A DNA stretch of 64,000 bases from Melioribacteraceae bacterium. GTDB taxonomy: Bacteria; Bacteroidota; Ignavibacteria; Ignavibacteriales; Melioribacteraceae. The translations under genes were made by a program, and so were the position numbers. The stretch is taken from the NCBI GenBank assembly GCA_021740785.1, contig JAIOZI010000002.1, positions 1 through 64,000 of the forward strand. The letters run 5' to 3'. Each line of letters begins with the position of its first letter. Position 1 is the first letter of the stretch. The notes below the pieces were generated by a model. That model saw nothing but the letters and a program-made list of their open reading frames with translations, made no database searches and was not told the DNA's origin. Below are positions 24,769 through 47,882 of the stretch, in pieces.

Positions 24769-24993
24769 TTTAACCCAGATTTTCCATTGGAAAATCTGCC
24801 CTTCGGGCCGACAATTTGTAAGTTGAAAAATATCAAATACTTAGCCATATAGCAATTTTGGAATTCGTTATTTGAGTAAAATATTTTTCTTACAAATTGT
24901 CGGGGTTAATCCCGCAACATAAAATGTTTTAATAAAACATTTTATGAGCGGCAACGGCAAAAAATTCATTTACAATGGATTTTTTGGGTTTAA
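24769..24993 (+). repeat. 225-bp multi-hairpin repeat element, copy 1
   Basis: The element is bounded by TTTAACCCA and TGGGTTTAA and has about 25 bp of imperfect terminal inverted repeat. Inside are a perfect palindrome GATTTTCCATTGGAAAATC; CCGACAATTTGTAAG paired with CTTACAAATTGTCGG about 100 bp away; the palindromic GGGGTTAATCCC; and ATAAAATGTT / AACATTTTAT arms. A near-identical copy lies inverted at 47657-47882. There is no ORF, so it is a MITE-like or structured-RNA element. It ends 40 bp before the start codon of the M23 peptidase gene. Confidence 0.82.
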
Positions 24994-25033: not shown

Positions 25034-26785
25034 ATGAAACTTGCTAAGCTCTCTCTGCTGATTATGTTTATTTTTTCATCAACTCAATTTGCTCAATTCA
25101 ATAAATCCGAAGTCGAAAGCGGTGAAATGATTAAGCAATCTAACACGCCATGTTTAACTGAGGAACAGCGGCGGGAAATTCATGAATCGAATAATAAAAC
25201 AATTACCCGGTTAATAAAGGAAGGAAAGATTAATCCCTCCAGTTTCAATTCACCAAAAGCAGGTTCATTTTCCTGGCCGCTTAAAGCATCTGCAGATGTT
25301 GATGATCTGAGTTATTGTGCGGTCTCCAATTTCGTAGATCACAATTCCTCGTATCCCGATCAACTTCTTGATTACAACGGCGGAACCAGAACTTATGATA
25401 CGGACGCCGGTTATAATCATCAAGGAACCGACATTTCCCCGTGGCCATTCCCCTGGTATAAAATGGATCATGATCAAATAGAAGTTATAGCTGTAATGGA
25501 TGGAATGATAATCGGTAAGGAAGATGGGCATTACGACAGAAACTGTTCGATGAGTGATTCTGTTTGGAATGCCGTTTATGTCCTTCACGATAACGGCGCT
25601 GAAGTTTGGTATGGACACTTAAAAGAGAATTCGCTTACAACTAAATTAATAGGGGAGAGAGTTTCAGCAGGTGAATATCTAGGAATTGTCGGCAGTTCCG
25701 GATCATCGACAGGTCCACACTTACATTTGGAGGTTTATGATTCTACCGATGTATTAATCGATCCGTGGTCAGGTTTGTCAAATCCAACAATTACAGAATC
25801 ATGGTGGATTGATCAACCGCTCTATTATGATTCAAAGGTAAATAAGCTTGCAACACATTCTGCATGGCCTGAATTCCCGGCATGCCCTCAGCAGGAAATC
25901 CCTCATTTCAGTGATGAGTTTGATCCGGGAGATAGTTTATACTTAGCTTCATATTACCAGGATTTGATGGCAGGTCAGTTAAATGAATTCAGCGTTGTTG
26001 ATCCAAATGGAGCAACAGTCTCTTCCTGGAATTATTCAATATCTGAGCAGCATTTATCCGCAGCTTTTCTCCAATTTTCTATTGGTCTTCCATCCGATTA
26101 TAGACCCGGAACCTGGCAAGTAAGATTAACTTATGAAGGTACAACATATACACATGATTTTACGGAGATTGAGCCTGTACCGGTTGAACTTGTATCTTTC
26201 ACCGGAACTGTAAACGATTTTCAAGTACTACTTAAATGGCAGACGGCAACTGAAATTAATAATTACGGATTTTTTATCGAGCGAAAATCAGTTCCGATCA
26301 AAAATAAATTTTCATCTAATGACGAGAAAATTTTTGAATGGGAGGAAATAGGTTTTGTAGAGGGACATGGAAACAGTAATTCATACAAAGAATATTCATT
26401 CACTGATTATCCTGAAATCAGCGGCGCTTATCTTTACCGTCTGAAGCAAACTGATCTCGACGGTAAATTTGAATATTCTGAGGAAATTATTGTGGAAACA
26501 TGGGAAATTTTTTCGCTAGCGGATGGATATAAACTCGAACAAAATTTTCCCAATCCTTTTAATCCCACAACCAAAATTATTTATCAAATCCCGAATAATG
26601 GGAAAGTAGTAATAAAATTGTACGACATACTCGGCAGTGTAATTCAAACACTTGTTGATGAGAATATGAGTAAGGGAAGGTATGTAGTTCCTTTTGACGG
26701 AAGCAATTTTCCCAGTGGAGTTTATATTTACAGAATTACATCAGGAGAATTTACGGCAAGCAAGAAGCTAGTATTACTAAAGTAA
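25034..26785 (+). CDS. Secreted M23-type peptidase with T9SS sorting domain
   Basis: The 583-aa protein starts with a signal peptide (LSLLIMFIFSSTQFAQ). An M23/LytM-type peptidase domain lies at about 120-250: NHQGTDIS (first His and Asp ligands), WYGHLKENS and GPHLHLEVYD (H-x-H). The core motifs of zinc endopeptidases that cut peptidoglycan cross-links are present. After about 390 comes the fibronectin-like region common in this phylum (VELVSFTG..LKWQTATEIN). The last 85 residues are a type IX sorting domain (NFPNPFNPTTKI to ASKKLVLLK). It is predicted to be exported and attached to or released from the cell surface. Its 5' region lies right after the 225-bp repeat. Confidence 0.9.
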   Translation: MKLAKLSLLIMFIFSSTQFAQFNKSEVESGEMIKQSNTPCLTEEQRREIHESNNKTITRLIKEGKINPSSFNSPKAGSFSWPLKASADVDDLSYCAVSNFVDHNSSYPDQLLDYNGGTRTYDTDAGYNHQGTDISPWPFPWYKMDHDQIEVIAVMDGMIIGKEDGHYDRNCSMSDSVWNAVYVLHDNGAEVWYGHLKENSLTTKLIGERVSAGEYLGIVGSSGSSTGPHLHLEVYDSTDVLIDPWSGLSNPTITESWWIDQPLYYDSKVNKLATHSAWPEFPACPQQEIPHFSDEFDPGDSLYLASYYQDLMAGQLNEFSVVDPNGATVSSWNYSISEQHLSAAFLQFSIGLPSDYRPGTWQVRLTYEGTTYTHDFTEIEPVPVELVSFTGTVNDFQVLLKWQTATEINNYGFFIERKSVPIKNKFSSNDEKIFEWEEIGFVEGHGNSNSYKEYSFTDYPEISGAYLYRLKQTDLDGKFEYSEEIIVETWEIFSLADGYKLEQNFPNPFNPTTKIIYQIPNNGKVVIKLYDILGSVIQTLVDENMSKGRYVVPFDGSNFPSGVYIYRITSGEFTASKKLVLLK

Positions 26786-46538: not shown

Positions 46539-46830
46539 TCTAGTTTTCAGTTATCGTTGATCAGTATAGGGTTATCGGTTTTCTGTTTATGGGTAATTAT
46601 GTTGGTCAGTTATTATGGTATTAAGATCGGGCTGGATTGAATATTGACTATCACCTACGCTAAAGCTACGGCAATTAAAACTGACGATTGACTATTAAAA
46701 ACACGGTAGTAAAGCAGTGGGTATGAATCTGGATGTAAGTAATTCAGTTATTTTGGGATTAAGAATAAGATTAAGAGCAAGATTGATTTCTTAATCATAC
46801 TCATAATCTTAATCTGTTTTCTTCAGAATC

Positions 46831-47341
46831 CGCAAATCCAAGCATAGTTATTAAGTTATTGGGTTATTGTGTTATTAAGAAGAAAAGATATGATAGAGCA
46901 TAGGGAAGAGAGCATAGAGGGTAAACGGTTAAGGGTGAAAGGTAAAGGACAAAAAGCAAAAATATCTAACAACCTTCACTCCACAAATCCAACCATCCAT
47001 CAATCCAAAATCCACCAACCCAAAAGTTTCGAATGCGTCAATCCGTTAATCCGATAACCTGCCTGCGGCAGGCAGGTTCGTAAATCCGCAAATCCAAGCA
47101 TAGTTATTAAGTTATTGGGTTATTGTGTTATTAAGAAGAAAAGATATGATAGAGCATAGGGCAAAGCGCATAGAGGGTAAACGGTTAAGAGTGAAAGGTA
47201 AAGGACAAAAAGCAAAAAAATCTAACAACCTTCAATCCACAAATCCAACCATCCACCAATCCAACTATCCACCAATCCAAAAGTTTCGAATGCGTCAATC
47301 CGCAAATCCGATGACCTGCCTGCGGCAGGCAGGTTCGTAAA
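46831..47341. repeat. 257-bp tandem duplication in intergenic DNA
   Basis: CGCAAATCCAAGCATAG starts at 46831 and again at 47088, and the next 250 bp are nearly identical (AGAAAAGATATGATAGAGC, AGGGTAAACGGTTAAG, then CCAATCCA repeats). Each unit ends with the palindrome CCTGCCTGCGGCAGGCAGG (47059-47077 and 47316-47334). Small ORFs here are not conserved between units. The flanks 46539-46830 hold no gene. Confidence 0.85.
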
Positions 47342-47400
47342 TCCGCAAATTCGTAAAATTACAAATTCGCAAATTCGAAAGTCCAATCAAAACATCTTTC
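47333..47400. repeat. 8-bp periodic tract
   Basis: In strict 8-bp register: GTTCGTAA, ATCCGCAA, ATTCGTAA, AATTACAA, ATTCGCAA, ATTCGAAA. This matches the tract at 27237-27284. No coding potential. 47400-47656 holds no gene. Confidence 0.72.
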
Positions 47401-47656: not shown

Positions 47657-47882
47657 TTAAACCCAAAAAATTCATTGGAAATAAATTTTTTGCCGTTGGC
47701 TGCTCATAAAATGTTTTATTAAAACATTTTATGTTGCGGGATTAACCCCGACAATTTGTAAGAAAAATATTTTATTCAAATAACGAATTCCAAAATTTCT
47801 ATATGGCTAAGTATTTGATACTTCTCAACTTACAAATTGTCGGCCCGAAGGGCAGATTTTCCAATGGAAAATCTGGGTTAAA
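47657..47882 (-). repeat. 225-bp multi-hairpin repeat element, copy 2
   Basis: Near-identical, inverted copy of 24769-24993, with the same terminal repeats and the same palindromes (ATAAAATGTT / AACATTTTAT; GCGGGATTAACCCC; GATTTTCCAATGGAAAATC). Differences are scattered substitutions and small indels, mainly in the central 60 bp and in the outer 25 bp. It lies between the tandem duplication and the ahcY terminator. Confidence 0.82.

Follow-up and report, generated by a model that had tools for sequence, protein, structure and literature searches.

The hairpin-rich sequence found twice in the window (the whole stretch of 64,000 nucleotides that was analyzed) is most probably a MITE, present in about 100 copies in its source genome and moved in trans by IS1380-family transposases. 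It is short and non-coding, has terminal inverted repeats and a target duplication, occurs in many copies and shares its ends with insertion sequences. It lies mostly between genes and takes no preferred orientation. An earlier note on this DNA had left the choice between a MITE-like element, an RNA and a recombination target. The first of these options has strong support: insertions left target duplications, two empty sites were found, copies are numerous and a family of insertion sequences has matching ends.

Boundaries, copies and insertion sites

The element consists of a 216-bp core, CCC...GGG, between target-site duplications of 5 bp that follow the pattern NTWAN. The core of copy 1, on the forward strand, measures 215 bp (24774 to 24988) and is flanked by TTTAA on the left (24769 to 24773) and on the right (24989 to 24993), so that the interval proposed earlier, 24769 to 24993, comprises exactly the core and both duplications. 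Copy 2 is inverted, with a 216-bp core on the reverse strand (47662 to 47877) between duplications at 47657 to 47661 (TTAAA on the forward strand, which is TTTAA in the orientation of the element) and 47878 to 47882. By sequence comparison, the two copies are 96% identical. The left end reads CCCAGATTTTCCAT... and the right end CCCAAAAAATTCAT...; CCCA starts both ends and hairpins come next, and perfect end-to-end identity is short. The terminal arms of copy 2 are complementary at 77% across 26 nt, target duplication included. The terminus had been given as TTTAACCCA; a shared end does exist there, but its TTTAA part is target duplication, and the terminus proper is CCCA(A/G)A. Other features that the earlier note had described, namely, terminal inverted repeats, hairpins, a CCGACAATTTGTAAG/CTTACAAATTGTCGG stem and a lack of coding sequence, were each recovered, with no open reading frame of at least 60 amino acids within the element. 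The neighboring gene 45 bp downstream of copy 1 (25034 to 26785, forward strand), which is outside the element, encodes a secreted M23 peptidase that carries a C-terminal tail for type IX secretion. Just upstream of copy 2, positions 46827 to 47350 hold a tandem duplication with a spacing of 256 to 257 bp, 95 to 96% identity and CCTGCCTGCGGCAGGCAGGT palindromes.

Two inverted copies, as first described, are indeed what the window contains, but the genome total is about 100. An interior 21-mer had 98 matches in the genome, against 0 for the reversed control, and the left end had 136, against 6. Many matches lie at the ends of contigs, where a repeat that interrupts assembly would be expected to fall. 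Mean pairwise identity among the copies of the source genome is 91%. Most copies have unrelated flanks and a NTWAN duplication of their own: the search for copies and target duplications that had been suggested returned, in a scripted count over the source genome, exact 5-bp duplications like those of copy 1 at 54 of 65 near-full-length copies. They include TTTAA, TTAAA, ATAAA, ATTAA, CTAAA and ATTAG, with T at position 2 in 53 of the 54 and A at position 4 in all 54. Two empty sites were found, both of them paralogous stretches inside the one genome. The joined flanks of the copies on contigs C3 and C109 match contig C11 at 87 to 89% over 222 to 223 bp, where ATTAG occurs once and the element is absent. 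For the copy on C54, the joined flanks match, at 94% over 123 bp, a stretch in which TTTAA occurs once.

Among scorable copies, 57 of 59 are intergenic, whereas positions drawn at random in the same flanks are intergenic in 27% of cases. Orientation relative to neighboring genes is random, both at 3′ ends (31/29) and at 5′ ends (25/23). By simple open reading frame calls, several insertions fall at gene ends, no more than a few bases from the stop codon; since NTWAN can include TAA, the stop codon would survive such insertions. The element would bring only ends that a transposase recognizes; its insertion into AT-rich NTWAN sites, which doubles those 5 bp, is shown by the duplications and empty sites.

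Several partial forms were also seen in the source genome. Three 27-bp remnants, CCCAGATTTTCCAATGAATTTTTTGG(G/A), hold the outer ends only, with TTAAA on each side (C37:86867-86893, C94:38734-38760 and C4:19390-19416), and perhaps arose by deletion between TTTCCAATG repeats of the two terminal hairpins. Short palindromes composed of the left terminal hairpin, flanked by CCC on one side and GGG on the other (CCCAGATTTTCCATTGGAAAATCTGGG), occur at C78:42926-42962 and C58:14225. At C3:8651-9014, ~228 bp of other DNA interrupts a copy between element positions 104 and 108.

The family is wider than the source genome. At an E value of 0.001 or better, the element matched 15 of 79 genomes of the bacterial family, in up to 13 of its 35 genera, the weakest of these matches being short and some due to chance. 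Among named genomes, the right-end 20-mer occurs chiefly in the Ignavibacteria MAG X2_MaxBin.003 and also in other Ignavibacteriales and in Bacteroidetes-labelled MAGs. X2_MaxBin.003 has 29 two-ended copies of 104 to 279 bp, 20 of them with exact NTWAN duplications; they show many differing internal deletions, as well as whole hairpins swapped at the same place. Related elements with NTWAN duplications of their own are present in other named Ignavibacteriales MAGs. Matches to the 20-mer in Heimdallarchaeota, Chloroflexi and Dokdonia came without the remainder of the element and were set aside. In genome G001, a diverged 160-bp element lies between TTTAA repeats (L148, 1506 to 1665), and at its right end (CCCTAATTATGCAATAG) it is similar to the terminus of an IS1380 element of genome G096 (CCCAAATTATGCAATAG).

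IS1380-family insertion sequences as candidate movers

Insertion sequences of the IS1380 family in the same order have ends of the same kind as those of the element, matching at about 18 to 20 of 21 positions against a consensus partly drawn after the termini were known. The clearest case is in genome G074 (L156:1365-2850), where an IS1380 element with termini CCCAAAATTGTC is flanked on both sides by ATAAT; its transposase scores 265.8 bits against an IS1380 equivalog cut-off of 180. This was the only hit, among the sequence gathered, in a scan for element-like end pairs 0.5 to 4 kb apart with matching NTWAN. The IS1380 termini of genome G090 are CCCAGATATTTC and CCCAGATTTTGC. At some IS1380 loci with matching termini (e.g., in G090, G063, G131 and G096), the flanking 5 bp differ between the two sides. 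We take ISEcp1 to be a member of the IS1380 family. Its left inverted repeat is CCTAGATTCTACGT and its duplication 5 bp (PMC7864471), a length common to ISEcp1, the G074 insertion sequence and the element. Altogether, ISEcp1 (PMC7864471) and the G074 insertion sequence resemble the element in termini of the form CC(C/T)A(G/A)ATT... and in an AT-rich 5-bp duplication. The element differs from the G074 insertion sequence in having no transposase gene, in length (216 versus 1,486 bp) and in its internal hairpins, none of which was seen in the insertion sequence.

Neither the source genome nor the copy-rich X2_MaxBin.003 yielded an intact IS1380 transposase. A Pfam IS1380 search of the source genome gave no match, and a closer query and a clade profile recovered one transposase fossil (C16:10014-10328, about 485 to 799 of locus L009; E value, 5e-23) with two TAG stops; the same search found no fragment in X2_MaxBin.003. 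A copy of the element lies about 700 bp from the fossil. Multicopy insertion sequences are often lost from short-read assemblies. In genome G002, contigs C18, C22 and C64 start with IS1380 transposase C termini, which suggests that assembly broke up a multicopy IS1380 element there. Because the source genome retains just a broken fragment, mobilization in trans can only be inferred, and the missing transposase gene is the main weakness of the IS1380 partner assignment.

The same MITE might instead owe its movement to a transposase of another family, its IS1380-like ends being convergent. We consider this unlikely. It would accord with the lack of intact IS1380 genes in the two most copy-rich genomes and with the 5-bp AT-rich duplications likewise described for Tn3-family miniature elements (PMC4133298). 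However, Tn3-family inverted repeats start with GGGG (PMC7864471) and the element starts with CCC, the sole complete element found with matching ends and a NTWAN duplication is an IS1380 element, and the fossil transposase of the source genome is IS1380 as well. Transposases of the IS1380 family are thus very probably the movers of the element and, supplied in trans, would move it as double-stranded DNA.

Two further candidates were dropped. A left end at C52:16942 of the source genome, considered as a possible autonomous element, stands upstream of a frame that by eye appears to encode a PAS-domain sensor. Descent of the element from a transposase gene was considered on the basis of a 29-bp interior match to an IS1380 transposase gene in genome G033, but a match of similar strength occurs in an unrelated gene of genome G041.

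Hairpin architecture and covariation

The element folds far better than expected from its composition, with a folding-energy z-score of −8.0 per strand and none of 200 shuffles equally good. On the forward strand of copy 1, a terminal hairpin, H1 (AGATTTTCC-ATT-GGAAAATCT; 24777 to 24797), stands beside the left terminus and has two compensatory pairs across genera. It is followed by H2 (GCCC-TTC-GGGC; 24798 to 24808), which reads GCGC...GCGC in one relative, and by H3 (24809 to 24902), a long-range stem of CGACAATTTGTAAG and CTTACAAATTGTCG with 5 compensatory pairs and an AT-rich, little conserved interior. An internal GGG-TTAAT-CCC motif (24903 to 24913; GGGGTTAACCCC in relatives) leads into H5 (24912 to 24951), a hairpin closed by CCGC...GCGG with 9 compensatory pairs, at whose site relatives carry other hairpins in place of the H5 sequence. 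H7, the right terminal hairpin (AAAAAATTCAT...ATGGATTTTTT), spans 24959 to 24985.

The earlier note had taken the preservation of hairpin positions between diverging copies to reflect either selection on structure or recency and had proposed aligning copies for covarying bases. Across genera, the hairpins are conserved and do show covariation. In a structure-free alignment of eight representative elements (from the source genome and six relatives), 18 of 58 consensus pairs show two-sided change with pairing kept (31 cells over the 8 lineages), whereas shuffled alignments gave a mean of 8.1 and reached 18 in 0 of 500 trials. When the partner was slid by 1 to 3 columns, there were at most 5 such pairs; selection of the representatives was manual, and the structure was derived from the same alignment, which this sliding control covers only in part. 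A hand-picked set of arms, biased by that choice, agrees with the 18-pair result. In contrast, the copies of the source genome decay uncompensated. Among 64 of them, 277 cells are broken by a single change and 17 are compensatory; without one subfamily pair, the latter number 12, and shuffling gives 6.4 on average and 15 at most. Divergence among these copies is 4.6% at paired and 8.4% at unpaired positions. Since compensation is strong across genera but no more than chance among the copies of the source genome, the fold is tied to the spreading lineage: constraint or regeneration acts there rather than on individual copies once they are resident.

We can only suggest why. The multi-hairpin fold may be kept because the element depends on it for transposition or replication, or it may be kept through template switching at hairpins; resident copies would then decay freely, internal deletion included. 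Hairpin-directed template switching is a known mutational process for quasi-palindromes. If it perfected imperfect palindromes here, covariation would arise without selection and the fold would be a by-product, an explanation compatible with a MITE that we regard as quite possible although we lean against it. The exchange of whole hairpins at the same site in X2_MaxBin.003 is what such switching would produce, but a high rate on every copy would give an excess of compensation within the source genome, and none was seen. Slightly more doubtful, in our judgment, is a structure-dependent MITE family in which amplification in trans requires the fold as well as the ends and in which the internal GGG-NTWAN-CCC junction records an origin as a fused dimer. 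The fold might then act, for instance, while the DNA is single-stranded at the replication fork, or it might serve as a scaffold joining the two ends. The GGG-TTAAT-CCC motif has the form of two element ends with one common NTWAN target, which suggests a fused dimer. Separate halves (CCC-A-GGG and CCC-B-GGG) were sought and none found, the candidates being full elements with an internal junction identical to the outer duplication. That the deletions are varied and mostly not amplified is consistent with amplification depending on the interior, though frequent deletion in hairpin DNA would look alike.

A deep fold with cross-genus covariation, in a copy 45 bp from a peptidase gene, might also be expected of a structured RNA, either a small RNA or a 5′-untranslated-region element, spread by duplication and retained at each site for what it does there. 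This we judge very improbable, given that orientation to neighboring genes is random and that compensation among the copies of the source genome (17 cells against 277 broken) falls in the shuffled range once the one subfamily pair is removed; target duplications and empty sites, moreover, require no RNA function. Rfam gave no match in the window at curated thresholds, the best weak match having an E value of 0.07 and 22 bits against 140, and the RNA or 5′-untranslated-region option raised earlier is unsupported. That a simple spacer or recombination target had merely been duplicated, as the two inverted copies in the window could suggest and as the earlier note would have concluded from only two copies with no target duplication and no compensatory changes, has virtually no chance of being right, since none of those three holds and some 100 copies, most with unrelated flanks and their own NTWAN duplication, along with the empty sites, exclude it.

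Known systems and significance

The element is a known kind, a MITE, with an unusual structural constraint. Foldable MITEs with ends shared with insertion sequences have been described already (PMC11578231, PMC4133298). MITEPye1 of Paracoccus yeei (PMC11578231) and the Tn3-derived TIMEs (PMC4133298) resemble the element in being non-coding and in having direct repeats and termini shared with an insertion sequence or transposon, and MITEPye1 is likewise foldable (PMC11578231). They differ in their partners (IS1182 and Tn3, respectively) and in their low copy number (1 to 3; usually single), and the accessible text reports no covariation for them, unlike the element (PMC11578231, PMC4133298). 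By description alone, the element is also like bcr1 of the Bacillus cereus group, which is short (about 150 bp), occurs in as many as 130 copies, folds with conserved stem-loops and is associated with a TTTAT motif (PMC6542083, PMC2267715). The mobility of bcr1 resembles site-specific recombination and is described as linked to a repeated TTTAT rather than to an insertion sequence with matching ends (PMC6542083); bcr1 belongs to another phylum. In a literature search made mostly outside subscription papers and partly on incomplete texts, no MITE tied to IS1380 and none in Ignavibacter came up, a silence that is weak evidence of novelty.

Retention of a fold across genera through matched base changes is unusual for such an element. 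The element family accounts for many contig breaks in the source assembly, and it extends MITEs to IS1380 partners. Folding of bacterial MITEs has often been noted, while the importance of the fold has rarely been tested. Here, one family spread over several genera makes covariation measurable. It is strong when lineages are compared and absent when resident copies are, and this contrast separates structure that serves spreading from structure that serves the host.
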